From an uncultured Flavobacteriales bacterium (GTDB taxonomy: Bacteria > Bacteroidota > Bacteroidia > Flavobacteriales > CAJXXR01): a DNA stretch of 64,000 nucleotides. Made by a program: the position numbers and the translations under genes. Of this stretch, positions 8,255 to 47,621 are shown piece after piece; the stretch's first letter is position 1; every line of letters begins with the position of its first letter. The notes under the pieces were generated by a model. The model ran no database searches, was not told the origin of the DNA, and saw nothing but the letters and a program-made list of their open reading frames with translations. The stretch is taken from positions 1 to 64,000 of the forward strand of contig CAJXXR010000012.1 in NCBI GenBank assembly GCA_913063375.1, read 5' to 3'.

Positions 8255-8269
8255 TAAATTTATTTATCG

Positions 8270-14687: not shown

Positions 14688-14688
14688 A

Positions 14689-24405: not shown

Positions 24406-24523
24406 TACCATATATTTCTCTAATGTGATTTTAAATTAAATATAAGATGATGTATATTGACCTTTTGATTCGATATTCTAGTCAAAGTTTATCATTTTTT
24501 ATAATAAACAGTTTGTAGATATT

Positions 24524-26410: not shown

Positions 26411-29400
26411 ATGATTAAAAATTTATTACGGCTGACAACCGTGTTTTCTGTTTTTGCATATTCCCTTATTTCAGCGCAGGGGATTTGTAATTATAGTCAA
26501 TCCTCTTTCGGATCGGATAATTCCAATTTTGTGGAATTTAATAATTTTGACTGTGCTGATACAGTTACCAATGGTTTTATAACTAGTACTGATTTACATG
26601 TAAATGCACTTGGGACTTGGTGCCCAAGTTGGTATGATTTTGATGTTGAGGTTAACGGTTCAGTCGTTGCTCAAAATCTTTGTAATATTGGTTCTGTAGA
26701 TTTATCTACTTACGGGGTTGACATTAATAATTTGACTAGTGTAAAAATATCATCAAATAATAATGACAATTTCCCCGATAATTTAACCCTTTCGGCTACT
26801 TTAGATATCACTTATATTGTTACTACTTGTCCACCTCCATCAGGTGTAATCTTTTCCAATTTAAACCCAACTACGGCAAATGTAGCTTGGTCTTCAAATG
26901 GATCTGAGGCTTTATGGAATATAGAAGTTGTTAACCTAACAGCTGGAGATACTGCAACGGGTGTGGCTACTTATACAGGTGTTACTGTAAATCCATATTC
27001 TCTTTCTGGTTTATTACCAGAAACGAATTATGCCGTATATATTCAGGCAGACTGTGGACCTTTTAATACAACACCTCAGAGTGATTGGTCTTTTGAAGGG
27101 AATTTTACAACTCCACCAACATGTGCTCCTTTAGGTTCGATTTCTATTGATTCTGTATCAGAATCTACGGTTTCCCTTTCTTGGGCGCAAGCAGGTTCCG
27201 AAACTTCTTGGGATATTGAATTGATCAATACTTCAAATATTCCTGCAGATACTTTTTCCTATACGCCTACAAACGCAGGCCTATCTTCCAATTCACCTAC
27301 AATTACAGGTTTAACGCCTTCCAGTGATTATGAGGTGATCGTTCGTGCGAATTGTGGTGTAATAGATGGACCAAGTGCTTGGACTACCGTATACAGTTTT
27401 ACAACTGTTGCAACTTGTCAAGCTCCTGTATCATTGAATCAAAATTTTACGGGATTTGATGCAATCAACTATACATGGATTGCTGTAGATAATGAATCGA
27501 TGTGGGATGTTGAAATAGTTAACCTAACCTTAGGGGAGGTTGCTTCAGGTATTCCAGATGATTCGACTACAACGACCGCATATATGGCATCTGGATTAAC
27601 AGGTAGTACACAATATGCATTTTATGTAAGAGCAAATTGTGGTGGTACAGATGGTGTTTCTGAATGGTTAGGGCCATTCAATAGAACTACACGTTGTGAT
27701 CCAGCAGTAACGCCTTATTTGAATGATGTGGAGTCCTTTACTAATTCTGTAGCAGGGCCTGTTGGAAGTTGTTGGTTGAACTGGCCAAATTTAAACTATC
27801 AATATAGATGGAATATAGACGGAAATGGTTCAACTCCTTCTGGAAGTACTGGGCCTTCTGGTGCTGCTAGTGGATCTAAATATTTTTATGTAGAAGCATC
27901 TAGTGGTCCTACTGGCGCTGTGGCTCCATTGACCTCTCAGTATATTGATTTATCCAACTTAACGAATCCTGCTCTTTCCTTTAAATACCATATGTATGGA
28001 TCCAATATAGAATCCTTGAATGTGGATATTTTCAGTAATGGAGTTTGGTATGATGGCGTATATTCATTAATAGGGCAACAGCAAACTTCTTCTGCAGCTG
28101 CTTGGATGGAAGCACATGTTAATCTAGCTGCTTATGCAGATACTATTCTAGTTCGTTTTAGAGCAATTAAAGGAAATGGATATTTTGGAGATATTAGTTT
28201 AGATGATATAAAAGTTGATGAAGGATTGTCATGTTATCCTCCAACCTCTCTAGTCACTTCCAATGTACTTGCTGATTCTGCTACCTTATCATGGACTGAA
28301 AACAATCTTACAGTTCCAGCTGGTGGATATTTAATTGAGTACGGATTGGCTGGTTTTGCTCAAGGTACAGGTAGTTTTGTGAATTCTACAGATACCTTTG
28401 TTACCCTGAATTCATTAATTCCTGGTGAAGGATACGAGTTTTATGTTCAAGCTATTTGTGTAGCCAATGTAGATTCTAGTGCTTGGTCTGGGAATGGGAG
28501 TTTTACTACGCTATGTGCAGCTATGGCTGCTCCTTATTTTTATGATGTAGAATCACAGGTTGTTACTACTCAGGGAAATAATTTTATCAATTGTTGGGAT
28601 GGAGACAATACAGCCTTTAGTTGGGATGTAGATAATAATGGTTCTACAACATCTGGTAATACTGGTCCTTCAGGGGCATATAGTGGAAACGCCTATTATT
28701 TTGTTGAAGCTTCAGGTGGACCTAATTTTACTGCAATAGCGAAATTGTCTACTCCTGAGATAGATCTAAGTGCGTTAATAATTCCAACGCTTGAGTTCCG
28801 TTACCATATGTATGGTGGAAATATGGGGACACTTCACGTGGATGTATTTGATACTATATGGCACAATGAAGAATTTTCTTTAGTTGGGCAACAGCATACT
28901 TCTCCAACTGCTCCTTGGTCATTGGCTTCGGTAGATCTTTCTGCATACTCTGGAATTGTAACGATTCGTTTCCGTGGAATTAAAGGAGGTGGATATATGG
29001 GTGATATGAGTATCGATGATATTCATGTTAGAGAGCTTCCAAATTGTTTTGCTCCTTCTGTGGATATTACTTCTACTGGTACAACAAATGTTTCTGGGAC
29101 GATAGACTCCATAGGTACTTTTGGTACTCAATGGTATATAGAAACAGTGGATATTACGAATGGTGGTGTACCAACAGGTATTGCTACAGATACAACTACG
29201 ACGCTTAACTTCAGTTTAACGGGATTAAATCCTGCTACGGAATATGCAATGTATATTCAGTCAGATTGTGGTGCTGACTTAAGTGATTGGGGTGTTGAAT
29301 ATTTCACAACTGATTGTGCGCCTATAGGTGATTTTGAAACTAGTTTCGAGAGTTTAGACGCTGGAAATGATACATTGATTTGTTGGGATTATAGAAAATC

Positions 29401-32400
29401 CAACTATAATAACAATAGTGCCTCTGTACAGGTTGGTAGTAGTAATTCATTAGCTTGTGATGGAAATAAGTACATTAGAATGTACAATTCAAATCAAGCT
29501 TGGTTGAGATCCTATTTGATCACACCTGAATTGAATAATATTACTGCTGGAACAAACATCCTTACTTTCTGGGCTAGAAATGGGTCTACTTGGGCTCCAA
29601 ATTCACCTTTTGAGGTGGGTACAATTTCAAATGCCGATAGTTTAAATACGTTCACATCCTTGTATTCTGGTTCTGTAGGTGTTACATGTGATTCTATTAC
29701 AGTTCCTTTCTTATCTTATACAGGAACAGATACTCGAATTGCTATCAGATTTACACCTGCTTCTACTTTTGATTATCTTTATATCGATAAAGTAAAATGG
29801 GGACCAGGACCTGATTGTGCTATGCCAGTAGGGTTTAATGTTCTAGATTTATCAGATGAAGAAGTAAGTTTAGATTGGTTGAATATCAGTCCAGATTCTT
29901 CATGGAACCTTGAATTGGTAGATGTTTTAGATACTTTAGATGTATATGATAGTATTCCTACGGATACTGCCTTTACACATCCTTTCACAATTGATGGATT
30001 ATCTGAAAATACCATTTATGATGTGTATTTAACGAATCCTTGTGATACAACAGGACAGGCTGTACAATTGACTTTTGTAACTCCATGGGCAAACAATCTT
30101 GGTGTTACCTCTATCGTTTCTCCTGCAACACAGGGTTGTAATTTAGATGACTCTATGCAAATTGAAGTTACAATCAACAACTTCGGTGGTCAGATGCAGT
30201 CAGGATTCCCAGTAGAATTGAGTTGGGATGATTCTATCTACTTTAATGTAGGAACTTTCATGGATACGCTTCTTCCAGGAGAATCAGCGAATTTTGTGAT
30301 CGATGGATACTATGACTTTAGTGCAGCTTTAGATTCAGCATTTTGGGTACAGACGGCCTTGGCTTCTGATTCATCTTCTGTAGATAATAATTCCAATTCT
30401 TCAGTTACCAACTTAGGTAATATGTATATCAATGTACAGGTAAATACTGGGCAGTATGCAGGTGAAGTTTGGTGGCAGGTTTTAGATACTGTTAACAATA
30501 TAAATGTATACACATCTGGTCCTCCTTCTGGATATTCAAACTACAATACCTACAACAAAGAGGTTTGTGTGTATGCTGGTGGTGATTATGTGATGAATGC
30601 TTGGGATACCTATGACGATGGATGGAATGGTGGTACCTATTCTATCACTCGATGTGGTGGAATTGTCATAGCAGACAACGGTGGTAATGAAGTTACCAAT
30701 GGTTATGGTGGAGTATCTGGATCTGATCTGGAAGTTCAAGAAGGTTTCCATGTAGATGAATGTCCAGATGATGATTTGGCTGTTATGTCTATTGATGGTT
30801 TATCTAGTGCTTGTGGATTAGGCGTTGAGGTAGGAACAGTTACCATTATGAACTTCGGGAACAATGATGTTTTAGCGAATGACGCTATAGCACAGTATCA
30901 GTTCAATAATTCAGGTCTTTGGATTGATTTCTGGGATTTCGATACAGGATTGGCATCTCAAACCGATACGGTATTTACTATGCCAGGTGTTGATATGAGT
31001 TTTGCTGGTACCTATACTATTGAGGTACAAATTGTATTTGCAGCTGATGAGGATACTACTACAAATTACCTATCTGTAGTAACTACAAGTGTTCCAACAC
31101 TTACAACTGATTCTACTACTTTCAATTATGACAATGGTGGTTGGACTTCTGATGCAATAAATGGAGTAAATAATTCTTGGGAATATGGTGTTCCAACAAC
31201 TACCGTTGCTGGAAATGGAAATGATCAAGAAGTTTGGGCTTCAAATTTATCAGGGGATGCTTCCTTAAATGAGTTGTCTTATCTATTATCACCTTGTTAT
31301 GATTTCTCTTCTTATACAGAAGATGTTGAAATTGAATTTGACTTTGTTAGAACAAATAGTGCGCACAATTTCAGATTACAGAAATCAATCAATGGTGGTA
31401 CAGGCTGGACGAATGTTTGGACTGCATCTAATAATACAAATACATGGACACATAAAATCCGTGTAGTTTCTGGATTAGCAGGTGAGTCTGATGTGAAATT
31501 CAGATGGAGATACCAATCGAACTGGTTGAATCCAGTTGAAGGATTTGCATTTGATAACTGGGAAGTAAAAGAGCATATTCCTTATACAGATGCTTCTCTA
31601 GCTAACCTTACTGTGGCTGGAAATCAAGTTTCAAGTCCTGTATCATTTGATCCAACAGTATTCGATTATACTTATGCTGTTCCATTTGGAGCTACAAACT
31701 GGAATGTTGGAGCAAATGTTAATGCTCCTTTCTATACTAGTATTTCCATTGATCAAGTATCTACTCTTCCAGATACAGCTACTGTTACAGTGATTGCGGA
31801 AGATACTTTGTATTCTGCAGTATATACTGTGTATATTACACAAGAGCCAGCTTCTACAGATGCTACTTTATCAGCATTAAATGTAAGTAATAACGCTGTT
31901 CCTGGATTCAACCCGGATACATTGTGTTATACTATGACCTATCCTTATGGTTCTGCATTTACCCCATCTATTACGGCTGTAGCGAATCATCCAAATGCAA
32001 CGGTTTCTATTTTAAATGTTGCTATTCCTGGTACTGCTTTTATTACAGTTACTGCAGAGGATGGTATTACAGTGAATGTATACTGTATCAATTATGAAGT
32101 ACAATCATTGTCTTCTAATGCATTTATGGCGGACATTCAAATGGATGCTGTGTCATTACCTGGATTCGTTGCTAATACCTACTGGTACTATGTAACCTTG
32201 CCAAATGGTACTACGGCTATGCCATTTATGACTTATCTTACAGCTGATGCAAATGCATCTGTTTCTTATTCACCTGCCTCATTACCACTTACAGATACTG
32301 CTGTATTTGAAGTGACTGCTCAGGATGGTGTTACTATGGAGACGTATTATGTTGTATTTGATGAGGCTGCTAGTAGTAATGCTAACTTGTTAGACCTTAC

Positions 32401-33199
32401 TGTCAACGGTGGTACAATTGCAGGATTTGATGCTGCAGTATTCATCTATGATGTTGAGTTGCCGTATAATTCACCAATTCCAAACTTGGATGCAATGGTT
32501 GAAGATACAACTGCTACAGTTGTAACGGTTGATGCTCCTTCTGTTCCTGGTACATCTATTGTAACAGTTACAGCTGCGGATGGAACTGAATTAGTATACT
32601 ATGTAAACTGGTCTTATGCTCCTGCAAATGATGATGCTACCTTAGATTCATTGATAACCAATGCTGGTTACTTCTGTATCATTGTAGGATCAGATACTTC
32701 TGCTGCAATGGTATTGTCTCCAGTAGATGATAATTCTTACAACCTAACAGTTGGTACTGGATTTGCTTCATTGGTTAACTTAACCATAGTACCTACTGAT
32801 CCAAATGCAACAGTTGTAATCTCTGGTTCTGCAACAGTAGCTCCTTATGGTACTATTATCATAACCGTTACTGCAGAAGATGGTTCTACCCAAGAAGTAT
32901 ACACTATCAATGTAGTATCTGATGACTGTTCTATTGGATTGGATGAGGCTATTTTGGGTCAAATCAATGTTAGTCCAAACCCTTCTAACGGTATCTTCTT
33001 TATAGAGACGCCAGCTGACTTGAACAACTATACAGTTTCTGTAGTTGATCAGATTGGTAAGGTTGTTTACAAGGACGTTGTTGTGGAAGCTACAATGGAA
33101 AAAGTAATGGATCTTAGTACATTGCCAGCAGGAATGTACAATATGAGAATTAGTACTGCTAGCGACTTTATCGTTAAACGTATTTCAATTATCAAATAA
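26411..33199 (+). CDS. giant multidomain T9SS adhesin (Fn3, MAM-like, cadherin-like)
   Basis: A 2262-residue surface protein. Signal peptide 1-22 (ending SAQ). Domain order by sequence: N-terminal beta domain 24-138; three Fn3 modules 139-427; MAM/choice-of-anchor-like 428-606; Fn3 607-700; second MAM-like 701-877; Fn3 878-966; anchor-type jelly roll 967-1135; Fn3 1136-1226; CARDB-like 1227-1335; a DTYDDGWNGG domain 1336-1451; CARDB-like 1452-1560; jelly roll 1560-1722; five cadherin-like sandwich repeats 1723-2170 (each ending in VTAEDG...VY). The type-A sorting domain starts at INVSPNPSNG (about 2184) and ends RISIIK. It is probably a surface adhesin or gliding-related filament. A strong terminator follows. 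Codon use is biased to GAT/GGT/ACT like a highly expressed gene. Confidence 0.9.
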   Translation: MIKNLLRLTTVFSVFAYSLISAQGICNYSQSSFGSDNSNFVEFNNFDCADTVTNGFITSTDLHVNALGTWCPSWYDFDVEVNGSVVAQNLCNIGSVDLSTYGVDINNLTSVKISSNNNDNFPDNLTLSATLDITYIVTTCPPPSGVIFSNLNPTTANVAWSSNGSEALWNIEVVNLTAGDTATGVATYTGVTVNPYSLSGLLPETNYAVYIQADCGPFNTTPQSDWSFEGNFTTPPTCAPLGSISIDSVSESTVSLSWAQAGSETSWDIELINTSNIPADTFSYTPTNAGLSSNSPTITGLTPSSDYEVIVRANCGVIDGPSAWTTVYSFTTVATCQAPVSLNQNFTGFDAINYTWIAVDNESMWDVEIVNLTLGEVASGIPDDSTTTTAYMASGLTGSTQYAFYVRANCGGTDGVSEWLGPFNRTTRCDPAVTPYLNDVESFTNSVAGPVGSCWLNWPNLNYQYRWNIDGNGSTPSGSTGPSGAASGSKYFYVEASSGPTGAVAPLTSQYIDLSNLTNPALSFKYHMYGSNIESLNVDIFSNGVWYDGVYSLIGQQQTSSAAAWMEAHVNLAAYADTILVRFRAIKGNGYFGDISLDDIKVDEGLSCYPPTSLVTSNVLADSATLSWTENNLTVPAGGYLIEYGLAGFAQGTGSFVNSTDTFVTLNSLIPGEGYEFYVQAICVANVDSSAWSGNGSFTTLCAAMAAPYFYDVESQVVTTQGNNFINCWDGDNTAFSWDVDNNGSTTSGNTGPSGAYSGNAYYFVEASGGPNFTAIAKLSTPEIDLSALIIPTLEFRYHMYGGNMGTLHVDVFDTIWHNEEFSLVGQQHTSPTAPWSLASVDLSAYSGIVTIRFRGIKGGGYMGDMSIDDIHVRELPNCFAPSVDITSTGTTNVSGTIDSIGTFGTQWYIETVDITNGGVPTGIATDTTTTLNFSLTGLNPATEYAMYIQSDCGADLSDWGVEYFTTDCAPIGDFETSFESLDAGNDTLICWDYRKSNYNNNSASVQVGSSNSLACDGNKYIRMYNSNQAWLRSYLITPELNNITAGTNILTFWARNGSTWAPNSPFEVGTISNADSLNTFTSLYSGSVGVTCDSITVPFLSYTGTDTRIAIRFTPASTFDYLYIDKVKWGPGPDCAMPVGFNVLDLSDEEVSLDWLNISPDSSWNLELVDVLDTLDVYDSIPTDTAFTHPFTIDGLSENTIYDVYLTNPCDTTGQAVQLTFVTPWANNLGVTSIVSPATQGCNLDDSMQIEVTINNFGGQMQSGFPVELSWDDSIYFNVGTFMDTLLPGESANFVIDGYYDFSAALDSAFWVQTALASDSSSVDNNSNSSVTNLGNMYINVQVNTGQYAGEVWWQVLDTVNNINVYTSGPPSGYSNYNTYNKEVCVYAGGDYVMNAWDTYDDGWNGGTYSITRCGGIVIADNGGNEVTNGYGGVSGSDLEVQEGFHVDECPDDDLAVMSIDGLSSACGLGVEVGTVTIMNFGNNDVLANDAIAQYQFNNSGLWIDFWDFDTGLASQTDTVFTMPGVDMSFAGTYTIEVQIVFAADEDTTTNYLSVVTTSVPTLTTDSTTFNYDNGGWTSDAINGVNNSWEYGVPTTTVAGNGNDQEVWASNLSGDASLNELSYLLSPCYDFSSYTEDVEIEFDFVRTNSAHNFRLQKSINGGTGWTNVWTASNNTNTWTHKIRVVSGLAGESDVKFRWRYQSNWLNPVEGFAFDNWEVKEHIPYTDASLANLTVAGNQVSSPVSFDPTVFDYTYAVPFGATNWNVGANVNAPFYTSISIDQVSTLPDTATVTVIAEDTLYSAVYTVYITQEPASTDATLSALNVSNNAVPGFNPDTLCYTMTYPYGSAFTPSITAVANHPNATVSILNVAIPGTAFITVTAEDGITVNVYCINYEVQSLSSNAFMADIQMDAVSLPGFVANTYWYYVTLPNGTTAMPFMTYLTADANASVSYSPASLPLTDTAVFEVTAQDGVTMETYYVVFDEAASSNANLLDLTVNGGTIAGFDAAVFIYDVELPYNSPIPNLDAMVEDTTATVVTVDAPSVPGTSIVTVTAADGTELVYYVNWSYAPANDDATLDSLITNAGYFCIIVGSDTSAAMVLSPVDDNSYNLTVGTGFASLVNLTIVPTDPNATVVISGSATVAPYGTIIITVTAEDGSTQEVYTINVVSDDCSIGLDEAILGQINVSPNPSNGIFFIETPADLNNYTVSVVDQIGKVVYKDVVVEATMEKVMDLSTLPAGMYNMRISTASDFIVKRISIIK

Positions 33200-33225
33200 G
33201 TAGGTTCTTATTATATAATCCCCTT

Positions 33226-33258
33226 AAAGGGCTAACCAATTGGTTAGCCCTTTTTTTA
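33226..33258 (+). terminator. intrinsic terminator of the giant adhesin gene
   Basis: AAAGGGCTAACCA - AT - TGGTTAGCCCTTT stem followed by a T-run, 27 bases after the stop. Confidence 0.9.
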
Positions 33259-33427
33259 TGGCATATTGTTAAGCCAAAAAAAACTTGTTTCTTCTAATGG
33301 GAATATACCATAGGTTGGGCTATTACATGATTATTATATAGAATTGGATTTAGCAGTGGTAGGTCTTTTTGAATATAATTTATTATTGAAATTTTGTTAT
33401 ATTGTAAGTATCAAATGAAATAAAATC

Positions 33428-34048
33428 ATGAAATATATATTTGTTCTAATACTAGTACTAAATACCGGTTTTACACTGAATGCTGAAGTTTCAATTTTTA
33501 ATAACTTTTCCGATAGTATTCCCTGTCCAGATAGCCTTGTTTGTGATATAACTGTGGATGGTGTAACCATTGATGGATTTCATCCAGATACGCTACATTA
33601 TACTTTAGTATTACCGGATTCTATTACAAGCTTACCCATTGTGAGTTTTATTCCTTGCGATTCTTTATCCAATCCTATAATAACGTATACTCAAGGAACA
33701 CTACCCTTGCCAGATATAGTCTATTTTGAAATCCAAGAGGATACTTGTTTTACTCAATATAGTGTACTTCTAACTACCGAGTTGATGAATATAGTAGAGG
33801 GAGAAATGCCAGTGTTTAGTTTATATCCTAATCCAGCTTATGAATCTGTGAATATCCAGTTAAATTCTGAACTGATAACGCATTGTGAAGTACTTGATCT
33901 ATCTGGAAGATTGGTGGAATCTATTCCTCTTTTGGAAGGGCAAAAAAAGTATGTTTTGGATGTACAGGATTATGGTTCTGGAATACATTTTATTGAAGTG
34001 TTTCAAGGGAAAGAAAGGATACAAACTGAACAACTAATAATAAAGTAA
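33428..34048 (+). CDS. short T9SS protein with one cadherin-like module
   Basis: A 206-residue exported protein: signal peptide 1-19, one cadherin-like sandwich module about 35-122 (DSLVCDITVDGVTIDGF...DTLHYTLVLPD), then a type-A sorting domain from FSLYPNPAYES to the terminal EQLIIK. It is the minimal member of the family at 41480, 43281 and 46411, and its module resembles the five C-terminal repeats of the giant adhesin 200 bases upstream. It is followed after 30 bases by an exported protein gene. Confidence 0.82.
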   Translation: MKYIFVLILVLNTGFTLNAEVSIFNNFSDSIPCPDSLVCDITVDGVTIDGFHPDTLHYTLVLPDSITSLPIVSFIPCDSLSNPIITYTQGTLPLPDIVYFEIQEDTCFTQYSVLLTTELMNIVEGEMPVFSLYPNPAYESVNIQLNSELITHCEVLDLSGRLVESIPLLEGQKKYVLDVQDYGSGIHFIEVFQGKERIQTEQLIIK

Positions 34049-34078
34049 GCAAAGAATATAAATTCAATTAATAATAAG

Positions 34079-34888
34079 ATGAAAAATTATACCCTCTTAA
34101 TAATCCTATGTTTTGTATATGGCATAAGTTCCGCTCAAGAAACGAAGGAATCTCTTTTTTCAAAAATGAAAACTTGGGAATATGAGTGGAGCGTTGGAGT
34201 TGGAATGGATGTGCTGGGGGCTGGAGAATCTTTAAAACAGCAGTTCAAAGAGGATGGGTTTGTAGAAAAAACAATGCGTATTTTTAATACTGCAGGTAAT
34301 CCAAAATCTTCCAGTCGTCCAAGCTATGAGATAGATTTGAAGGCATTTGTAAATGAGCAAAATGGATTCTCTATAAGTTTCGCCAAAATAAGAAGTGATA
34401 GGGTATTTGGATTCGATTCACTAGAAGTGAATAATGGGTGGCTATGGCCAGAGTTCGGTTTAGGGAATATGATTAAAATTTACGATAAAAGTTACGCTAC
34501 CACACTTAATTATATTTATCGAACTAAAAATAAAATGCATTATTTTGAGGTTGGACCAAGTCTGATGAATCAAAAAATAACAGTGAAATTAACAGGGAGA
34601 AAGTCACGTATTACTAGAATCTATAAAGGTGGTTTTCACCTTAGTTACCAAATTTATTTACAAAGAGTGAATACGTTTTTTTCTGCTCTTAAATTATCCT
34701 ACCGGTGGTTTCCTAGTTCTAATTTCGGTCCCTATACGGCAGAGTATGACCCGAAATCTGATATGTTACCAGGTCCTATTTTCTCAGTTTTTAATCAAGT
34801 AAAGGGGCCTAGTCATAGTTTCAATATTCAGGTAGGTTTTGGAAGGAAATGGCTTTCAGGGAAAAGAAAGGCAAAGATGAAAAGGTAA
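34079..34888 (+). CDS. exported protein of unknown function
   Basis: A 269-residue protein with signal peptide 1-19 (ending SSAQ). The body has amphipathic strands rich in aromatic residues (WSVGVGMDV, ISFAKIRSD, NYIYRTK, HYFEVGPS, FHLSYQIYL, LKLSYRWF, FNIQVGFGRKW) that fit an outer-membrane barrel, and it ends in a Lys/Arg-rich tail. No T9SS sorting domain. It lies 30 bases after the short cadherin-like gene and 45 bases before a small membrane protein gene, so it is probably in the same transcript. Confidence 0.65.
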   Translation: MKNYTLLIILCFVYGISSAQETKESLFSKMKTWEYEWSVGVGMDVLGAGESLKQQFKEDGFVEKTMRIFNTAGNPKSSSRPSYEIDLKAFVNEQNGFSISFAKIRSDRVFGFDSLEVNNGWLWPEFGLGNMIKIYDKSYATTLNYIYRTKNKMHYFEVGPSLMNQKITVKLTGRKSRITRIYKGGFHLSYQIYLQRVNTFFSALKLSYRWFPSSNFGPYTAEYDPKSDMLPGPIFSVFNQVKGPSHSFNIQVGFGRKWLSGKRKAKMKR

Positions 34889-34933
34889 TTGAATGTAAAT
34901 CGGCGGAAGTTAATAGCTGAATGTGAATCTAAA

Positions 34934-35149
34934 ATGGAAAGTATGAAAAACAAATATGGAATATTAGCGAGTTTGTTTATCCTTCTTTTCGGAACAGGGT
35001 TTATGATGGGGGTCTATTATATTTCCGATGTTAATGAGTTTGGATTTTATGATATGACCAATTTGAAAACTCATTTATTGGCTTCTTTTGGAGTGGGTAT
35101 CCTTCCAATTCTTGGACTTATGATCCATAATAAATATTTCTCCAAATAA
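34934..35149 (+). CDS. small two-helix membrane protein
   Basis: A 71-residue protein with hydrophobic segments at about 9-29 and 46-64 (counted from the ATG at 34934). A TTG at 34889 would add 15 charged residues that do not look natural; 34943 is another possible ATG. No family recognised. Last gene of the short cluster that starts at 33428. Confidence 0.5.
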   Translation: MESMKNKYGILASLFILLFGTGFMMGVYYISDVNEFGFYDMTNLKTHLLASFGVGILPILGLMIHNKYFSK

Positions 35150-35343
35150 GATTTCTTCTCCTCTGGTATTGGATTTACTAAGGGATTATATTGCAATTAT
35201 TCTATAGATTGACGTCCATTCCTTTTATAGATTGTGTATTTCATTGAGAGAATGCTAATGGTTGTTGAATCTATTTTTGAAAATTGTTTAAATACAATAT
35301 CTTGAAGTAGAATTAATTATAGAAATCCTAGTCCCTCGAATTT

Positions 35344-36990: not shown

Positions 36991-36995
36991 GCGAT

Positions 36996-38192: not shown

Positions 38193-38195
38193 CCT

Positions 38196-38651: not shown

Positions 38652-38687
38652 TATTGATGACAAGATTTTCTATTACATTAAATAAAT

Positions 38688-38721
38688 AAAAAATCTCCTT
38701 AATAAATGAAGGAGCTTTTTT
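38688..38721. terminator. intrinsic terminator between convergent genes
   Basis: CTCCTT - AATAAATG - AAGGAG stem extended by an A-run pairing with a T-run on the right; it separates the small exported protein gene (plus) from the TlpA-like gene (minus). Confidence 0.8.
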
Positions 38722-38751
38722 GAATTGGTCTATCAAGGTATGGTTAATTAT

Positions 38752-40005
38752 CTACCAATCTAGCATGGTATATGCCTTGATAAAAAACGCCTTGTTTTCA
38801 CCTGGTAGCCTAACGAATTTGTTATCTGGAGAGATTAAAAATGTAGTAGGGTATTTATCGACCTCCAATTGATTTAATTGGGGCCTACCAATTATCATTA
38901 CGGGGAAGTCATATTTATTTTTTCCCATGAATCGTGATACTTTTTCAGGCTCATCATTACAAAGTGTTATGAATTCTATAGGATTTGCATTTAATTTTTT
39001 AAATGCCTTCTGCATTTGTACAAAATGAGGCAATTCTTTTACACAAGGCTTACACCAGGTTCCCCATACATCTATTATTTTCCAAGTACCTTTGTTTCCC
39101 ACCGAATCTATATATGCGTTTATATCAGCACCTGGATTAAATTGTTTCCAATCTTTTTGACTTTGATTATACCAGTTTTTCTTAATGTCGTCCTTGTTGC
39201 GGTATATAGATTTTAGCCAATTTAAATTTTTATCAGTTATGTGATTGGCAACCAGCTGAGTCCCGTAATTTTCTTTGGTTGTTCCATTCTCCATTTGTTC
39301 AATAATACCTTTTTGGTACTCGAACTTATTTGGGAAAAAATCGGGAAACTTGTTAAAAATAAATCGATCTATAAAAGCTTGGTCTGTAGGATTACATGGT
39401 ACGTTAAATATATCATCCAAGGTATTTAAACCTAATTCGTATCGTTGTTGTGCGTATATAAATCTTAAGTAATTTTTCACTGCACTGATGCCATTATTTG
39501 GTGCTACAGTATTGATGTTTTGCCTCGATAATTTATCTATCCAATCTTGGGTTTCTGAACTTGAAAATTGGAGTTTATTTTGTAGTTCGAAAAATCCGAT
39601 AGTATTAAATTGAGCACTATAATAATTTTTTCCTGCCGCTAGGTTTATAGTTTCGTACAACTCATTTTTAAAAGCGATAAGTTCTTCCTTATTTTGACAA
39701 TCTTGTATTTGTAGTATACGGTAGAATGGGCTGATTTGGTCTTTTGAAGAAACTGAACTTTTAGCATATTCCTCTATTAAAAGTTCAGCTTTTAGACTAT
39801 CTTCTATTGCGTGCTGCATAATTAATCCAAAAGTCATATCGAAAAGATTTGGAGCATTACTCAATGAATCGAAATATATCACACTATTTTTATAGTCTTC
39901 ATTTTTGTAGTGTTCACGTGCCTTTTGCAGCCAATGGAAGGGGAGTTGGGCAGTACAATTAGCACCAAGAAGAAGCACAATAAATAGTTGAAGGTAATAT
40001 TTCAT
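38752..40005 (-). CDS. TlpA-like thioredoxin-fold protein
   Basis: A 417-residue exported protein. Signal peptide 1-19 (ending CTAQ). Residues 20-290 form a helix-rich domain without recognised motif. Residues 295-417 are a TlpA/ResA thioredoxin fold with redox motif WCKPC (Cys318, Cys321), the conserved KYPTTFLISPDN with cis-proline, and a late YTMLDW end. It probably reduces disulfides or handles thiols of exported proteins in the periplasm. It lies on the minus strand inside the surface-protein island, so a role in maturation of those proteins is possible but unproven. Confidence 0.85.
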   Translation of the reverse strand: MKYYLQLFIVLLLGANCTAQLPFHWLQKAREHYKNEDYKNSVIYFDSLSNAPNLFDMTFGLIMQHAIEDSLKAELLIEEYAKSSVSSKDQISPFYRILQIQDCQNKEELIAFKNELYETINLAAGKNYYSAQFNTIGFFELQNKLQFSSSETQDWIDKLSRQNINTVAPNNGISAVKNYLRFIYAQQRYELGLNTLDDIFNVPCNPTDQAFIDRFIFNKFPDFFPNKFEYQKGIIEQMENGTTKENYGTQLVANHITDKNLNWLKSIYRNKDDIKKNWYNQSQKDWKQFNPGADINAYIDSVGNKGTWKIIDVWGTWCKPCVKELPHFVQMQKAFKKLNANPIEFITLCNDEPEKVSRFMGKNKYDFPVMIIGRPQLNQLEVDKYPTTFLISPDNKFVRLPGENKAFFIKAYTMLDW

Positions 40006-40201
40006 AAAAAATTTATTATTTGGATTCTTAATAATATATCAAAGGTGTAATATAATACATCTTTTAGTAAGCTCATAAAATTTAAGCATTTTGAAAAGGA
40101 TATTGTTTTGAATGAAAGGGAACATTATCTTTATTTTAATTTTTTTTCACTGTTGCCTGTAATAATTCTTGATTTCCACCACTAACTAAGAAAAACCTAG
40201 C

Positions 40202-40684
40202 GTGAGTAGTGATTTCTATATAGCATCCATTTTACCGTATTCAGGTATAATTATTAAAATCTGTAGGGCCTATACAAATTCCCAAGAAGATTTTGAAGAT
40301 TATTACCAGGAGGTCTGTCTTCAAATTTGGAGAAGTAAAGACAATTTTCGTGCAGATTCTGAATGGTCCACTTGGATCTATAGAATCTCATTAAATGTCT
40401 GTCTAACCTTATTGAAGAAGAATAAAACTAAGGGACAGGAGTTTGTTTCAGACAGTCTTCCGACTGAACTTACAGATTCGAATCCTAGTTTTAGTGATGA
40501 AGTACATGATAAATTGTATGCTGCTATCCGGCAATTATCCGAGGTAGATAGAGCTGTCATTATGTTGTACCTAGAAGAAAAGTCATATCAAGATATTGCA
40601 GAAATAATTGGTACCAATTCTAACAATATCGGTGTGCGAATTAGCAGAATAAAGGAACGTTTAAAAAAATTATTGGATGGATAA
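40202..40684 (+). CDS. sigma-70 family (ECF-type) RNA polymerase sigma factor
   Basis: A 160-residue two-domain ECF sigma factor. Region 2 is visible at about 8-75 (YYQEVCLQIWRSKDNF, WSTWIYRISLNVCLTLLKK) and region 4 at about 102-158 (AVIMLYLEEKSYQDIAEIIGTNSNNIGVRISRIKERLKKLL). Start is GTG at 40202. The next gene overlaps its end by eight bases and codes a membrane protein that may be its anti-sigma factor. Confidence 0.9.
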   Translation: MSSDFYIASILPYSGIIIKICRAYTNSQEDFEDYYQEVCLQIWRSKDNFRADSEWSTWIYRISLNVCLTLLKKNKTKGQEFVSDSLPTELTDSNPSFSDEVHDKLYAAIRQLSEVDRAVIMLYLEEKSYQDIAEIIGTNSNNIGVRISRIKERLKKLLDG

Positions 40685-41333
40685 GTCAATTGAAAACATG
40701 TGGAAAGAAGCTTTTTTGAAAAGCGATGCATTGGTAGCACCTAAGATCAACAATTTATACAACAAGAAGTCCCAGCATATTGTTGATAAATTCAAACGAA
40801 TGTTTAAAATCAATCTGAGCGCAATATTTGTGTTTGCCTTCATAGTGCTGATTGCCTCATATCTAACGGGAATTGTATATCTGGGAATTGCGATGTTCCC
40901 GCTTTTTATGACGGTGGTAATAGTGAACCAAAAACTGTATAAAAGTATAGTAGATGTGGATAATAGCCTAGATAGTTATCATTACCTCAAAAGTTTTGAT
41001 ACCTGGTTGAAGAAGTCAATCGATGTCAATACTAAGCTATCTAGATTCTTGTATCCGTATGTATTACTAGCGCTAATTGTCGGTTTTTGGTTTGTTAAAG
41101 AGGATGGAGTATTCTTAGGAAATATATTTTTATCCGATCTTATTGCAGATAAACCCGATTTGTATTTAGTATTTGGATTGCCGCTTATTGGTATAATCGC
41201 CTTGGTATTCCTATTAGGATTTCTAGCCTTTATTGGTGGTAAATTGTATTTATTTGAAATGAATGCTATTTATGGGAAGGAAATTTCAAAATTGGATGAG
41301 CTTATTACGGATATGGAAGAATTACGGAATTAG
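40677..41333 (+). CDS. membrane protein coupled to the sigma factor (possible anti-sigma)
   Basis: A 218-residue protein with a cytosolic N-terminal helix (MDKSIENMWKEAFLK, residues 1-40), four hydrophobic segments (about 43-61, 64-80, 121-139, 165-187) and a Lys/Glu-rich C-terminal tail. Layout and overlap with the sigma gene fit membrane partners of ECF sigma factors in Flavobacteriia. There is no zinc-binding ZAS motif (HxxxCxxC), so it is not a classical anti-sigma. A terminator follows. Confidence 0.7.
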   Translation: MDKSIENMWKEAFLKSDALVAPKINNLYNKKSQHIVDKFKRMFKINLSAIFVFAFIVLIASYLTGIVYLGIAMFPLFMTVVIVNQKLYKSIVDVDNSLDSYHYLKSFDTWLKKSIDVNTKLSRFLYPYVLLALIVGFWFVKEDGVFLGNIFLSDLIADKPDLYLVFGLPLIGIIALVFLLGFLAFIGGKLYLFEMNAIYGKEISKLDELITDMEELRN

Positions 41334-41378
41334 ATTACCTTATTCAGTTTTGATTACTAATAGATGATTCTTATTTAT

Positions 41379-41415
41379 AGACAAGTTTCTAGATGTCTAG
41401 AAGCTTGTCTTTTTT
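41379..41415 (+). terminator. intrinsic terminator of the sigma operon
   Basis: AGACAAGTTTCTAGA - TG - TCTAGAAGCTTGTCT stem (15 pairs, one G-T) followed by TTTTT, 45 bases after the membrane protein stop. Confidence 0.9.
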
Positions 41416-41479
41416 CTCTATTTTACAAAAGTTATATTGTTATATATTTTCATATCTTAGTTGAATAAAATTTAATATG

Positions 41480-42382
41480 ATGAAACATTTATACCTTTTG
41501 ATAGTGCTTTTGGTCACTTGTTTTTCTATTCAAGCCAAGAATTCATATTCCGAATTTACCCAAGAATCAAGTCTGATGATAATTGATTCTGTAGTATGTG
41601 ATATATTTATAGATGGTGTTGCCATTCCAAATTTCACACCACTTGATACAGTGTATGATGTGGTGATCCCTTCAAGCGGAACACTCCCAATTGTTACCTT
41701 TGGGTTTTGTAATAATATAACACTTGATACTGCAATGATTACTCATGCAGTTGGAATTCCAGGTACTTCCACCTTTTATTTATCTACTTCTGCAGGTGCT
41801 GTAACGTATTATATCAATTGGGGACCAGCTCCTCCTTCTCCCATTGCAACTTTAGATTCTGTGTATACAGATGCAGGTTTCTTTTGCAGTTCAGGTAACC
41901 CGATGGGTATAGCAGTTGAAGGCAGTGTTATGGCTATTGAACTCGGCGATACAGCATCGTCTTTGGTAAATTTGATCATTGTTCCTACGGATACAAATGC
42001 AACTTATGTTGTGTCAGGTTCTGGGACGGTAGCTCCTTATGGTACTATTATCATTACGGTTACAGCTGAAGACGAGGTATCTACGGAAGTTTATGAAGTT
42101 ATTATTTTTACCTATTGTCCTTTGAGTATAGGAGAAAATATTCAGAATACAGTTACAATATCTCCGGTGCCTGCATCAGACATTATTAATATAGGTTTTG
42201 ATCAATTAACTGAAGGTACTGTTCGTTTAGTGGATATTTTTGGTAGAAGATTAGTAGAAAAAGAAATAATAGCAGAATCAGAAATTAGCTTTGATGTCTC
42301 AAGTTATGCCTCGGGGATTTATTTTATTGAATTAATGGTAGCGGGTAGAAAAGTCATGAGTGAAAAGTTGGTGATTGAATAG
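41480..42382 (+). CDS. short T9SS protein with two cadherin-like modules
   Basis: A 300-residue exported protein. Start at the second of two adjacent ATGs (41480), which aligns its signal peptide (MKHLYLLIVLLVTCFSIQA) with that of the 46411 gene. Module 1 about 32-115 (VCDIFIDGVAIPNFTPLDTVYDV), module 2 about 120-212 (ATLDSVYTDAGFFC...VTAEDEVSTEVYEV), sorting domain 220-300 (TISPVPASD ... SEKLVIE; note PVP instead of PNP). Module 2 is strikingly similar to the last repeat of the giant adhesin, including a run of 26 identical bases. Confidence 0.82.
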   Translation: MKHLYLLIVLLVTCFSIQAKNSYSEFTQESSLMIIDSVVCDIFIDGVAIPNFTPLDTVYDVVIPSSGTLPIVTFGFCNNITLDTAMITHAVGIPGTSTFYLSTSAGAVTYYINWGPAPPSPIATLDSVYTDAGFFCSSGNPMGIAVEGSVMAIELGDTASSLVNLIIVPTDTNATYVVSGSGTVAPYGTIIITVTAEDEVSTEVYEVIIFTYCPLSIGENIQNTVTISPVPASDIINIGFDQLTEGTVRLVDIFGRRLVEKEIIAESEISFDVSSYASGIYFIELMVAGRKVMSEKLVIE

Positions 42383-42410
42383 GAAAAAAGGTTCTTTTAA
42401 AATTTACTAA

Positions 42411-43163
42411 ATGAAAACTGGTTATTTGCTGTTAAGTTTGATTTTAATATTGGTAATCTATTCGTATTGGTATGTGAAAAATACTGAGAAAACTAAGGAT
42501 GAAATCAAGGACTTTAGTTTGAATGTTCAAAAAGAGCAACCAATTAATATGATAGAAGACCAACCAATTGGTTTTGGTTATAAATGTATTTGGTTTGCAG
42601 TCAAAACAACCGATAAGGAACGAGTGTCTAAAATTATAGGTTTAAAAAAACAAATGCCATCTAACTGGGAATACGGTATTAAAAGAGCTTATGAAAATTC
42701 AATATTTATTAGCCCTGAAATTCAAGGCTGGACCTTTGTAGTAGGTTGGGGATTGCCAGATGGAAGTTCTACGAGTAGTATGTCTGAAGTAACGACACTA
42801 TTGAATGCATTGAGTAAAGAATTTGGTGAAGCACAATTCTATGTCAGCCATAGGGTGGTAGAATATCATGGTTGGATAAAGTCATGGGAAGGTCAAATAG
42901 TACGATCCTATTTCTACCTAGGAGAACAAGTTAAGAATATTGAAATATTTGGTGAGGCTACAGAGGTTGAAAAGGGCTATAAGCTAGTGAATACTTTTTC
43001 TAAGGAAGCTCAACACGATAGCTATTGGGATAGAGAAGATTTAACCTACCCAGATGAAGAATTGGTCATGAGAATAGCCGATTCATGGAGTATTGATCCA
43101 TCTAAATTAGAAGAATATAAGGGATCAAATGGACTTGGAATACTTGGCGTTAGACAAAGGTGA
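42411..43163 (+). CDS. membrane-anchored hypothetical protein
   Basis: A 250-residue protein with one N-terminal hydrophobic helix (4-24) and a soluble domain with many Trp and Tyr. Motifs such as WTFVVGWGLPD, LNALSKEFGEAQFYVSHRVVEYHGW and DLTYPDEELVMRIADSWSIDP recall a widespread uncharacterised family of bacterial proteins, but I know no function for it. It lies between two cadherin-like T9SS genes, 28 bases after the first. Confidence 0.65.
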   Translation: MKTGYLLLSLILILVIYSYWYVKNTEKTKDEIKDFSLNVQKEQPINMIEDQPIGFGYKCIWFAVKTTDKERVSKIIGLKKQMPSNWEYGIKRAYENSIFISPEIQGWTFVVGWGLPDGSSTSSMSEVTTLLNALSKEFGEAQFYVSHRVVEYHGWIKSWEGQIVRSYFYLGEQVKNIEIFGEATEVEKGYKLVNTFSKEAQHDSYWDREDLTYPDEELVMRIADSWSIDPSKLEEYKGSNGLGILGVRQR

Positions 43164-43280
43164 TTCAGAACTCTCTTTGAGTACTCTATTAGTGAGATCT
43201 GTATGACAGGAAATGATTATAATGCTTAGTGCTATTGTTAGATAATTTATTATATTGTTGTAAATAAAACCCTTTATATA

Positions 43281-44153
43281 ATGAGAAATTTATCGTTTAT
43301 TCTTTTGTTTTTTAGTGTAATACATTCTACTTGGGCCAATGGGTCATATTTCATACAATCCTCTTCTTCTTGTCCGGATACCGCATTGTGCGATCTTACA
43401 ATAAATGGAGGCACCCTTGTCAATTTTGGAAGTGTCAATACTTGGGATGTAGAAGTATCTCCACTAGTAACCAGTTTACCAGGTGTGGGATACTTCCTTT
43501 GTGATACTTCCCTTTCTGTTTCCTATACGGAAGCAGTTTTACCTTTACCAGATACTACAGAAATAATAGTTTACTGTCCAGATGGAGATTCAGCGATCTA
43601 TAGCATTTATTGGAATTATGCGCCGTCCAATAACGCTTTATTAGATAGTTTGTTTTTTAGTGAAGGGGAGCTTTGTCCTGAATTCAATCCAGATTCCTTA
43701 AGCTATGTTTTAGAATTAGATTCATTAACTGGATTTATGCCAATGGCGAATGCTTTCCTGGCTGATTCAAACGCTACTGTAGTAGTCACAAATGCTAGCA
43801 TTCCTGGTGAGATGACTATAGTTGTAACAGCAGAAGATGGTGTTACGACTACTGCCTATACGATACTAATAGGAGGTGATTGTGATTTGGGAATAGATGA
43901 GATGAATGATATGTTGGCTATAGCGCTCTTTCCTAATCCCGTAGAAAATATACTAAATATTCATTTGGATGGTTCGTTTTCAAGAAAGCTATCCTTGGTA
44001 GAACTCTCTGGTGGGGTTTTACAGACTGTTGAAATAGTGGAAGGTCAAAAAGAGTATCAATTAGATGTCTCAAATTATCCATCTGGAATTTATTTTATAC
44101 AGATGCAGAATGATGGAGAGATGCTTAAAAGTGAAAAGTTGATTATTAAGTAA
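43281..44153 (+). CDS. short T9SS protein with two cadherin-like modules
   Basis: A 290-residue exported protein: signal peptide 1-19 (ending TWAN), module 1 about 30-110 (LCDLTINGGTLVNFGSVNTWDVEV), module 2 about 112-200 (ALLDSLFFSEGELCPEFNPDSLSYVL ... VTAEDGVTTTAYTI in part), and a type-A sorting domain from ALFPNPVEN to SEKLIIK. Paralogue of the 33428, 41480 and 46411 genes. Thirteen bases after its stop lies a Cys-containing small secreted protein gene. Confidence 0.82.
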   Translation: MRNLSFILLFFSVIHSTWANGSYFIQSSSSCPDTALCDLTINGGTLVNFGSVNTWDVEVSPLVTSLPGVGYFLCDTSLSVSYTEAVLPLPDTTEIIVYCPDGDSAIYSIYWNYAPSNNALLDSLFFSEGELCPEFNPDSLSYVLELDSLTGFMPMANAFLADSNATVVVTNASIPGEMTIVVTAEDGVTTTAYTILIGGDCDLGIDEMNDMLAIALFPNPVENILNIHLDGSFSRKLSLVELSGGVLQTVEIVEGQKEYQLDVSNYPSGIYFIQMQNDGEMLKSEKLIIK

Positions 44154-44166
44154 GTATTTCGAGAAT

Positions 44167-44385
44167 ATGAAAAAATATCTGATTGTTATTTTTGTATTTT
44201 CCTTGTCAATTCTCTTTTCTTCCAGTAATACTGGGGAGGTTTATATATGTCTTGGGAAGTATGCAAAGAAGTACCATCTTGTTAATACTTGTAGAGGATT
44301 GAATAATTGTAAAGCAGAGATTAATAATGTCACTTTGGAGAATGCAAAGCGAAAAGGTAGAACTTTATGCGGTTGGGAAGATTGA
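44167..44385 (+). CDS. small secreted Cys-motif protein
   Basis: A 72-residue protein with signal peptide (1-20) and a mature part of about 50 residues holding four Cys (28, 42, 48, 68) and His37: YICLGKYAKKYHL, TCRGLNNCKAEI, then KRKGRTLCGW. This compact pattern recurs in short Bacteroidota proteins and could be a small metal-binding or disulfide fold (Ada-like). Function unknown. Co-directional with the T9SS gene just upstream. Confidence 0.65.
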   Translation: MKKYLIVIFVFSLSILFSSSNTGEVYICLGKYAKKYHLVNTCRGLNNCKAEINNVTLENAKRKGRTLCGWED

Positions 44386-44579
44386 TCATAATCCTTGACG
44401 CTTGAAAATAGATTAATACTTTACTCCTTTATATTTAGAATTTAACAGTTAAAATTATTAGTGATTGAAGCCATATTGTTTAGAATTCTATAAAGAGAAA
44501 GATGTTTGTTTTTTGACTATTTTTATGTAATGCCGTTGTTATAAGAATTAGTATATTAGAACAAATGAAACATTTTATA

Positions 44580-46325
44580 ATGAAATATATAATTCTTTTT
44601 TTGACCCTGATGAGTGCCAACATTTCAGTTTTTGCTCAAATTGAATCTTTTGGATGGGCTAAACATTTGGAATCGGATAATTATACTTCTGCTTACGCTT
44701 CTCAACTTGATGATCAGGGAAATTTAATTGTTGCTGGTGTATTTCGAGGCACCATTGATGTTGACCCTGGTGTTGGTGTCGATACATTGAATAATAATTG
44801 GGTCAATTGGATTAATTGGTCATGGTACACGATTGGCAATTCGGATGGAATAGTAGCAAAATATACACCAGAAGGTACTTTGGTATGGGTGAAGAAATTT
44901 GAGACCTTTGGAAGTTTAATAGTCAATTCAATTCAATTCGATGAAGACCAAAATATAGTGCTGGCTGGATATTATCATGGATTGATTGATTTTGATCCAG
45001 GGCCGGATACGGCTTTGTTTGTTGGGGAACAATACTATGACCCCTATGCATTTGTGATGAAGTTGGATAGTGTAGGGAATTTGATTTGGGTGAATGAATT
45101 TCATCATTCAAGAATTAACTCCATGGATATTGATGAAAACGGCAATATTTATTCAACTGGAGTATTTAATGAAAATGTAGATTTTGATCCTAGCGATGAT
45201 GAATATTACCTATATTCTGGATTTATGAATACTCCCGAAACCTTTGTTTTAAAATTAAATGAAAACGGTGAGTTAGTCTGGGTAAAACAGTTTCCTTGTT
45301 ATGTGCAGGTAAATTCAGCTCAAAATCTAGTTTTAGATGATGATGAAAATATGGTGATTTCGGGTAAATTATCTGGACCAACAGATTTTGATACTGATAG
45401 TACAGACCAATTTATTCTCGGAGAGCCATCGGTTCACAGTATATACTTTTGTAAACTGGATAGTAGTGGTGCTTTTATTTGGGCAAAGAGTATGAAATGT
45501 AGTGAGCTCGCTACTCCTTCAAGTGCTGTTGTTGATAGTATGAATAATAGTTATACTGCTATAAATTTTATAGATAGCGTGAATATAGATACTGGGAATG
45601 CTGTTCTAAATATAGAATCCCAAGGGGGAAGAAACGCTCTAATATTGAAGTTAGACAGTTCAGGAAATTATATTTGGCATGAAGCCTATCTCTCTATATA
45701 TGATATTGGAATTATGGATATTGAAATTGATATTTTAGGTGCTGTTTATACAACAGGGTATTTTAGGGAGGAAATTGACTTTGACCCTAGTGCAGATAGT
45801 CTCTTTTTAAGTACGGACAGTTTGGGGGCATTTATCCATAAGTTGGATACGGAAGGCTCCTTTCAATGGGCCCATAAATTAACCAGTGAAAATGGATATG
45901 TTTGGGCCCGTTCTTTGTGTGTAGATGATAGTTTTGAAGTATACACTTCGGGGGTATTTACGGGATATACGGATTTTGGAATAGGAATGGTAAATCAATC
46001 TATAGATGGAGGAGAAATGCCGGATATTTTTATGCATAAAATCAACCAATCTATTTCAACGGTAGGAGTACAAGAAAATATACATGTTAATTCAATTAAT
46101 TTAAGCCCAAATCCTGCTAAATCAATAGTTAGGATTCAAAGTAATTTCAATACCAATGCAGCGCTTTATCTTGTTGATTTATTTGGTAGGGAAATAGTGC
46201 AATTGGATTTTAAGGATGGAGATGAAATGAGTTTTGATGTTTCAAATTATCCTTCTGGAATATATTTTATTCAAGTTTTGGTTGATGGAGAATTAATTCA
46301 AAGTGAAAAATTAATTGTAGAGTAA
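44580..46325 (+). CDS. SBBP-type propeller T9SS protein (copy 1)
   Basis: A 581-residue secreted protein. The start at 44580 (MKYIILFLTLMS) aligns with the paralogue at 58984; an ATG at 44565 would add five residues. Signal peptide to about residue 20 (ending VFAQ). Residues 21-500 contain about ten blade repeats of a beta propeller (DDQGNLIVAGVFRGTIDVDPG, DIDENGNIYSTGVFNENVDFDPS and similar), each with G.(F)..(V/I)DFDP. The type-A sorting domain runs NLSPNPAKS to SEKLIVE. Function unknown; the Asp-rich turns suggest calcium binding. Confidence 0.85.
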   Translation: MKYIILFLTLMSANISVFAQIESFGWAKHLESDNYTSAYASQLDDQGNLIVAGVFRGTIDVDPGVGVDTLNNNWVNWINWSWYTIGNSDGIVAKYTPEGTLVWVKKFETFGSLIVNSIQFDEDQNIVLAGYYHGLIDFDPGPDTALFVGEQYYDPYAFVMKLDSVGNLIWVNEFHHSRINSMDIDENGNIYSTGVFNENVDFDPSDDEYYLYSGFMNTPETFVLKLNENGELVWVKQFPCYVQVNSAQNLVLDDDENMVISGKLSGPTDFDTDSTDQFILGEPSVHSIYFCKLDSSGAFIWAKSMKCSELATPSSAVVDSMNNSYTAINFIDSVNIDTGNAVLNIESQGGRNALILKLDSSGNYIWHEAYLSIYDIGIMDIEIDILGAVYTTGYFREEIDFDPSADSLFLSTDSLGAFIHKLDTEGSFQWAHKLTSENGYVWARSLCVDDSFEVYTSGVFTGYTDFGIGMVNQSIDGGEMPDIFMHKINQSISTVGVQENIHVNSINLSPNPAKSIVRIQSNFNTNAALYLVDLFGREIVQLDFKDGDEMSFDVSNYPSGIYFIQVLVDGELIQSEKLIVE

Positions 46326-46410
46326 ACATAGCTAATTTGCATATTGATTGGTTCAATATGTACTTATTAGATAATTGTTTACTTTTAACAGTAAATTAAA
46401 CATAATTAAA

Positions 46411-47565
46411 ATGAAGCATTTATACCTTTTAATAGTACTGTTTTGTACTAGTTATTCAATACAAGCAAATACCAATATTTCAATATTCGAACAGCAAGAA
46501 TACCAGACTTCCTCTGATTCTATTGTTTGTGATATTTCTGTATATGGCGTTTCTATACCAGGGTTTACGCCTTTGGATACCATATATGATGTTACCATAC
46601 CGTATAATTCACCCATTCCAGTAGTTGAAATAATGTTTTGTGATACGAACGATATAATCATTGTGGATATTGTGGATGCCACAGTAGTACCTGGTACTTC
46701 CACTTACAGTATTAATTCTAGCCAAGGTAATATCACATATTATATCAATTGGATATATGAGTTACCTTCATCGGATGCGGATTTAATATCTCTTACAGGT
46801 ATAACAGGATATTTATGTCAACCATTTCATCCCGATAGTTTAAATTATCAATTTGCAGTGGGGGCGGGGTTCATGTCTTTAGCAGGGCTTTCGGCTGAGC
46901 CTTCAGATTCCCTGGCTATGTTAACGCTTACAGGATCTGCTACTGTTAGCCCTTATGGTACTCTTGTTATTATGGTTACTGCCCAGGATGAAATTACAAC
47001 AAAAGTGTACACGGTGGAAATAGTAGAATCTTGTCCTCCTAATTTTGATTTAATATTATTATCAGATTCCAATGCTATATGGTGTGAAGAATTTTCAAGT
47101 GATCAATACATCTACTATGTACAAGTTGATTCCTCCTTTACCAAATTTCAGATATTAGAAAATATAAGTGGGGTAGATACTTCTGCTGAAATTGCTGTTT
47201 ATATTTCTCCAGAGGATCCAGAAGATTATATTCAAATAGGTATTGAAAGCTTTGGTTCTATGTTTTATTATGAAGTTTATTTGGTTGATTCATGTCCTCC
47301 ATTATCAATTGGGGAATTGATAGAGAATTCAATTATCTTATACCCTAATCCTTCAAGTGATATCGTAAATATCCACGTTGAAAATGATGACCAGGCTACA
47401 TTAACCATATTGGATGTCTCTGGAAGGTCTGTTAAGGAACTCATTATTGAAAAGGGAGAAGAAGCCGTTCAAATAGATGTTTCAAAATTCCCAAAAGGAA
47501 TGTATTTCATTCAATTATATGAAAATGGCAAGCTGCTTATGAATGAAAAGTTGATGGTAGAGTAA
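46411..47565 (+). CDS. short T9SS protein with three cadherin-like modules
   Basis: A 384-residue exported protein. The ATG at 46411 gives signal peptide MKHLYLLIVLFCTSYSIQA, matching the 41480 gene; a TTG start at 46375 is rejected. Three modules (about 30-115, 120-215, 216-300) each begin with a Cys and end in a (T/Q)(V/I)Y strand; the sorting domain starts ILYPNPSSD and ends NEKLMVE. Module 2 keeps the SPYGTLVIMVTAQD segment shared with the giant adhesin. A strong terminator closes the island. Confidence 0.82.
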   Translation: MKHLYLLIVLFCTSYSIQANTNISIFEQQEYQTSSDSIVCDISVYGVSIPGFTPLDTIYDVTIPYNSPIPVVEIMFCDTNDIIIVDIVDATVVPGTSTYSINSSQGNITYYINWIYELPSSDADLISLTGITGYLCQPFHPDSLNYQFAVGAGFMSLAGLSAEPSDSLAMLTLTGSATVSPYGTLVIMVTAQDEITTKVYTVEIVESCPPNFDLILLSDSNAIWCEEFSSDQYIYYVQVDSSFTKFQILENISGVDTSAEIAVYISPEDPEDYIQIGIESFGSMFYYEVYLVDSCPPLSIGELIENSIILYPNPSSDIVNIHVENDDQATLTILDVSGRSVKELIIEKGEEAVQIDVSKFPKGMYFIQLYENGKLLMNEKLMVE

Positions 47566-47621
47566 TACTTTATTTTATAGCTTTTTATCGTTCTCAAGCA
47601 TTTTTCAATTTACCCAATATC

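Follow-up and report, generated by a model that had tools for sequence, protein, structure and literature searches.

A locus on contig C12 of an uncultured Flavobacteriales bacterium raises the question of whether short secreted proteins can serve a giant adhesin as a store of exchangeable modules. The stretch analysed here (64,000 nucleotides, hereafter the window) belongs to a genome of 2.46 Mb that is 83% complete and contains 109 matches to T9SS sorting domains. It encodes a giant T9SS surface protein, gC12, and four short proteins, which are named below by their start positions. A preliminary description of this DNA proposed that all five proteins share cadherin-like modules, that a run of 26 identical bases between two of the genes points to recent exchange or gene conversion, and that the short genes could act as a module reservoir for the giant. 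The genes and domains concerned are the following.

26411..33199, + strand: giant T9SS surface protein gC12 (2262 aa), an open reading frame in the window
31583..32917, + strand: five tandem cadherin-like modules of gC12 (residues 1725-2169), which start at 31583 (m1), 31853 (m2), 32111 (m3), 32372 (m4) and 32627 (m5)
32963..33196, + strand: type A T9SS sorting domain (CTD) of gC12, a profile match above the cut-off
33428..34048, + strand: short T9SS protein 33428 (206 aa), one module and a CTD
41480..42382, + strand: short T9SS protein 41480 (300 aa), two modules and a CTD
43281..44153, + strand: short T9SS protein 43281 (290 aa), two modules and a CTD
46411..47565, + strand: short T9SS protein 46411 (384 aa), three modules and a CTD; the nearest short sister of 41480

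From its N- to its C-terminus, gC12 comprises a hydrophobic N-terminus, fn3 repeats, a MAM-fn3-MAM cassette, further fn3/beta-sandwich domains, the five cadherin-like modules and a type A CTD. The architecture given in the preliminary description is borne out: the tail of the giant consists of five modules of the same type as those in the short proteins, and the latter carry one, two, two and three modules, respectively, each set followed by a type A CTD. In particular, the m4-m5-CTD end of the giants aligns with 41480, 43281 and 46411, and 33428 has a single module. The sorting-domain profiles PF18962/TIGR04183 (Por_Secre_tail) match the C-terminus of all five proteins above both cut-offs; as for a Sec signal, hydrophobic N-termini are visible by eye in the giant and the shorts, and the structural model of 41480 has a predicted N-terminal helix. 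The term 'cadherin-like' holds as a description of the modules but not as membership in PF12733 ('Cadherin-like'), as the gathering cut-off of 24.2 bits is missed both in the giant (best score 22.6 bits) and in the shorts (21.9 bits for 46411, 15.4 bits for one other and no match in the remaining two). An AlphaFold2 model of 41480 (12 sequences; mean pLDDT 77.5, pTM 0.45) contains two all-beta modules, putative beta-sandwiches, and a CTD-like domain. The latter matches the solved CTDs of mirolase, NucA, RemA and RgpB, and module B matches 8yk1 (Z 8.3, rmsd 2.7 over 84) and 4het (Z 7.7, rmsd 2.7 over 85) at Z values near the level of unrelated sandwiches. gC12 is probably an adhesin with a stalk beside the sorting domain that is made up of its five terminal beta-sandwich modules, and giants and shorts presumably function at the surface. 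A terminator-like hairpin (33226-33253) lies between gC12 and 33428.

Two giant paralogs of gC12 are present in the same genome, gC11 (2246 aa, contig C11) and gC16 (2110 aa, contig C16). The genus is represented by this one genome and the family by this genome and G001, which has one giant (2247 aa) with five tail modules. Identity to gC12 is approx. 50-70% outside the middle for gC11 and approx. 33% for gC16. The tail modules, five in each protein, are colinear in all four giants, and in the module tree each module of gC12 is joined to the gC11 module at the same position, while m1 unites all four giants; the positional pairing is starred for m1, m2 and m5 and weaker for m3 and m4. Since the giant modules pair by position, they have not been homogenised within a gene, and concerted evolution of modules within one gene, which had been a candidate, is ruled out by this tree. 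A stretch of gC12 at 27200-27235 is identical to gC11 over 36 nt, which exceeds what codon-usage randomisation produced (0 of 300). The following regulatory genes lie upstream of gC12.

23278..25675, + strand: two tandem AraC-type regulators (23278-24405 and 24524-25675) with a probable membrane N-terminus and HTH_18 matches

A homologous AraC-type regulator is found upstream of gC11 (locus L037, 16785-17924, - strand), and the three regulators are 36-50% identical among themselves. Since two of the three giants, gC12 and gC11, have such a gene directly upstream, regulator and giant were probably duplicated together. Via the HTH, these regulators show a weak similarity to YSIRK-adjacent surface antigen regulators, and a match to a SieB-type superinfection exclusion protein (21854-22450) lies near them. 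A search for invertible promoters near the giants returned only weak inverted repeats of 12-14 nt.

Two exact copies of the 26-nt sequence GTAGCTCCTTATGGTACTATTATCAT, and no more, are present on the + strand of the window: one starts at 32837 in m5 of the giant and one at 42029 in 41480. The identity between 32837-32862 and 42029-42054 is exact, as had been reported, and the surrounding protein segment is indeed almost the same (33 of 39 residues). When synonymous codons were randomised with both proteins held fixed, a run of this kind had a P of approx. 0.0007 for the pair and 0.005 for the 10 tail-gene pairs. Over m4-m5, however, codons for the same residue are identical between gC12 and 41480 in 30 of 70 cases, with 29.8 expected from codon usage, and in the patch described below in 17 of 33, with 13.0 expected, silent sites being at or near saturation both inside and outside it. 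The codons directly flanking the run have third-base mismatches, and there silent differences resume; moreover, five of the eight codons in the run (GCT CCT TAT GGT, ATC) are shared with gC11. The permutation test for silent runs gave a P of 0.028, uncorrected, and a 3SEQ-type test on nucleotides, in which the giant was taken as the child, a P of 0.006 over several triplets. Recent conversion of the 26-nt block is rejected on the silent sites. A parallel search for conversion of sorting domains among 23 cargo genes found long runs only between recent tandem paralogs, apart from one identical run of 23 nt that joins the sorting domains of two different cargo genes.

Between gC12 and 41480 there is no conversion tract with few synonymous differences, but there is a bounded patch of higher identity around the run.

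32765..32881, + strand: patch in m5 of the giant, common to 41480 (39 codons, 78% nucleotide identity), which holds 32837-32862
41957..42073, + strand: giant-type patch in the second module of 41480, which holds 42029-42054

Outside this 117-nt patch, nucleotide identity between gC12 and 41480 drops to 40% and 37% in the flanks, and residue identity to approx. 30%. Along 41480, the nearest relative changes. Informative residues that 41480 shares with gC12 only or with 46411 only are divided 14:0 inside the patch and 17:51 outside (Fisher P 1e-7), and in a permutation scan for a change of nearest relative P is under 5e-5. In columns common to both giants and not to 46411, 41480 sides with the giants in 13 of 17 cases inside and in 8 of 82 outside (stratified by conservation, P 7e-11). 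Elsewhere 41480 is closer to 46411 than to gC12, with identities of 0.49 vs 0.29 in module A and 0.40 vs 0.29 in the CTD. The alignments are small, and the patch was defined after the data had been seen, for which the permutation scan allows; its left edge is soft because the alignment is poor over the first half of module B. On these sequence comparisons, 41480 looks like a mosaic produced by one old transfer of a patch between itself and m5 of the giant, in either direction, and we infer copying rather than selection as the cause. The earlier proposal of exchange or gene conversion is to that extent upheld, but not the word 'recent'. Of the 117 bases of the patch, 91 are identical between gC12 and 41480 and 92 between gC12 and gC11 (silent codons, 17/33 vs 20/33), with bootstrap values of 0.47 and 0.51 for which pair is the closer. 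Since the two pairs are equally diverged here, the transfer would be about as old as the duplication of those giants. The patch was probably copied once, around the time of the duplication that gave the two giants, and the 26 identical bases would be its best-preserved core.

The most serious competing account involves no exchange at all: the 39-residue segment would be constrained in the giants and 41480 and relaxed in the other shorts, and the identity of the 26 nt would be due to chance, given favoured codons and a conserved peptide. Several of the observations above are in keeping with it, namely the modest excess of identical silent codons in the patch, the codons of the run that recur in gC11, and the values of the silent-run and 3SEQ-type tests, the former uncorrected and the latter taken over several triplets. 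Comparable runs also exist elsewhere (the 36 nt between gC12 and gC11 and the 23 nt between two cargo sorting domains), m1 shows that local peaks of conservation occur in this module family, and in module B the pairing of 41480 with 46411 survives an AU test (P 0.48). It is harder to reconcile with the way in which 41480 agrees with the giants inside the patch and not outside, even when columns are stratified by conservation, and with module A, where 46411 is closer than 41480 to the giants, the reverse of the patch. An account without exchange is considered unlikely, although it carries real weight, and one old transfer remains the preferred reading of the patch.

A second departure from simple descent is found in the middle of the giant.

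27719..29026 (approximate), + strand: central MAM-fn3-MAM cassette of foreign type (giant residues ~437-872)

Identity between gC12 and gC11 is approx. 0.70 before the cassette, 0.27 over residues ~437-872 and 0.51-0.66 after it, with cassette edges near domain borders. Across the same region, identity between gC11 and gC16 stays at 0.36, and gC11, gC16 and G001 share another type of cassette, unlike that of gC12. No other copy of the gC12 cassette was found in its own genome (83% complete), nor in G001 at E 1e-40; cassettes of this type are present in 46 other genomes of the order, nearly all of family f8, with approx. 43% identity for the best full-length matches. In the cassette tree, gC11, gC16 and G001 split from gC12 and the foreign cassettes with 100/100 support, and an AU test rejects the pairing of gC12 with gC11 (P 3e-6). 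The same test does not reject one clade of gC12 and the other three giants (P 0.24), and an old cassette that diverged very fast is thus an alternative. The foreign reading rests on the similarity to adhesins of other families, and by these comparisons the cassette is likely of foreign origin and swapped into gC12. In GC3 it resembles the sequence around it, and in codon usage it deviates only slightly; because both are near normal, the event would be old or the donor similar. The short genes were also considered as donors of this odd cassette and were set aside, as no other copy exists in the genome. The large swap in gC12 is that of the central cassette, not of the tail modules, and the giants may have diversified by replacement of the whole MAM-fn3-MAM cassette with one of foreign type. 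A more far-reaching view, in which shorts and giants exchange sub-module patches over evolutionary time, the shorts act as a slow, non-silent store, and whole cassettes are imported from other families, appears quite improbable.

As to the origin of the short genes, their m4-m5 nucleotide identity to the giants is 0.47-0.53, and outside the 41480 patch short and giant modules are mostly approx. 25-41% identical, with no near-identical pair. In the module tree, the first modules of the shorts cluster (92/84), and the second modules of 41480 and 46411 stand beside m5 of gC12 and gC11. More members of the short family are found on contigs C25 (two, 72% identical) and C1 (two), as two tandem pairs of short genes with module and CTD, at 1541-2167 and 4149-4778 of locus L082 and at 7752-8873 and 8991-9878 of locus L040. 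The C25 pair, with an exact run of 35 nt at 72% identity, stems from a more recent duplication than those in the window. The short family was found in 1 of 296 genomes of the order, this genome itself, with lone module matches in three others; these are open frames of 518-534 aa, and the two inspected are different T9SS-type proteins. With the m4-m5 pair as query, GTDB contigs yielded only two matches, both remote, and a literature search on the module family of shorts and giants found no paper. Each short gene is complete, with a start and a sorting domain of its own, and the family is restricted to this lineage; the shorts are not a silent reservoir. The simplest reading is that they arose within their own lineage from a giant, by way of its 3' end: the two-module shorts are best read as old copies of the m4-m5-CTD end of the giant that would then have diverged as separate, complete genes, and the one- and three-module genes may have the same origin.

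The opposite direction, in which the shorts would predate the tail and fusion with one of them would have given the giant its end, draws on the fact that colinearity alone does not give a direction; however, G001 has a full giant with five modules and otherwise only sorting-domain matches to a 46411 query, and m1 pairs across all four giants, which makes a fusion very unlikely. Recent or continuing gene conversion, with the shorts as a module reservoir for the giant, is the least credible of all, as the exact 26-nt identity and its rarity under codon randomisation are set against silent mismatches in the adjoining codons, the lack of any near-identical short-giant module pair, intact positional orthology of the giant modules and the completeness of the short genes; at this locus the reservoir idea is contradicted on these grounds. 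Overall, giants and shorts would constitute an old family of T9SS-exported surface proteins, with shorts derived from the giant end, one old patch copy and one cassette replacement, and this combined explanation is judged fairly probable.

Other repeats and paralogs occur in the same genome. The genes at 44565-46325 and 58984-60756 are paralogous T9SS cargo genes, 68% identical in DNA over 1.8 kb, the first with a weak beta-propeller match. Dispersed intergenic repeats are found in the window at 62731-62912, 55410-55523 and 47603-47732, and on locus L041 at 5618-5896, 10350-10590, 12387-12662 and 14648-14790. By eye, some of these repeats have a terminator-like stem and then a stretch that, on the reverse strand, resembles part of a tRNA; ARAGORN called no tRNA there. 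A separate repeat family of approx. 300-400 nt, 75-84% identical, is present on contigs C1 and C11 (L040 3643-4217, 15809-16349 and 17452-17839; L083 13706-14286).

A close parallel is that of Kgp, RgpA and HagA of Porphyromonas gingivalis, which are likewise modular surface proteins, exported by the T9SS and equipped with a conserved sorting domain at the C-terminus. The same module families occur in several of these genes, which differ in their set of domains through replacement of modules (PMC5266723). There, shared adhesin modules are classed at >90% identity, the repeats of one gene are identical to each other and to those of other genes, and combinations vary by strain (PMC5266723). In contrast, the shared modules described here are far more diverged and are cadherin-like rather than cleaved-adhesin domains, and the genus comprises one genome. 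Borrelia vls resembles this locus as an idea, in that segments pass between partial copies and a surface gene that is expressed; however, vls silent cassettes are promoterless, approx. 90% identical to the expressed gene and placed in one array (PMC11499132), whereas the shorts are complete open reading frames with their own start, a hydrophobic N-terminus and a CTD, and have approx. 47-53% DNA identity over the tail. Fibrillar adhesins of the CshA/B and PAD family are similar in that large adhesins diversify by domain exchange between members and taxa (PMC10952558), but they differ in domain types and are not a T9SS cargo family as such.

The domains of these T9SS adhesins have evolved in an ordinary manner, with one old patch and one old replacement of a cassette. 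For work on such families, where silent sites are saturated, a stretch of identical bases in two paralogs says little in favour of recent conversion, and a change of nearest relative along a gene is a stronger test. For the biology of the family, the locus indicates how T9SS surface proteins may diversify in an unstudied lineage: the stalk modules are inherited vertically, the small relatives are confined to the lineage, and the part that is replaced would be the central MAM-fn3-MAM region.
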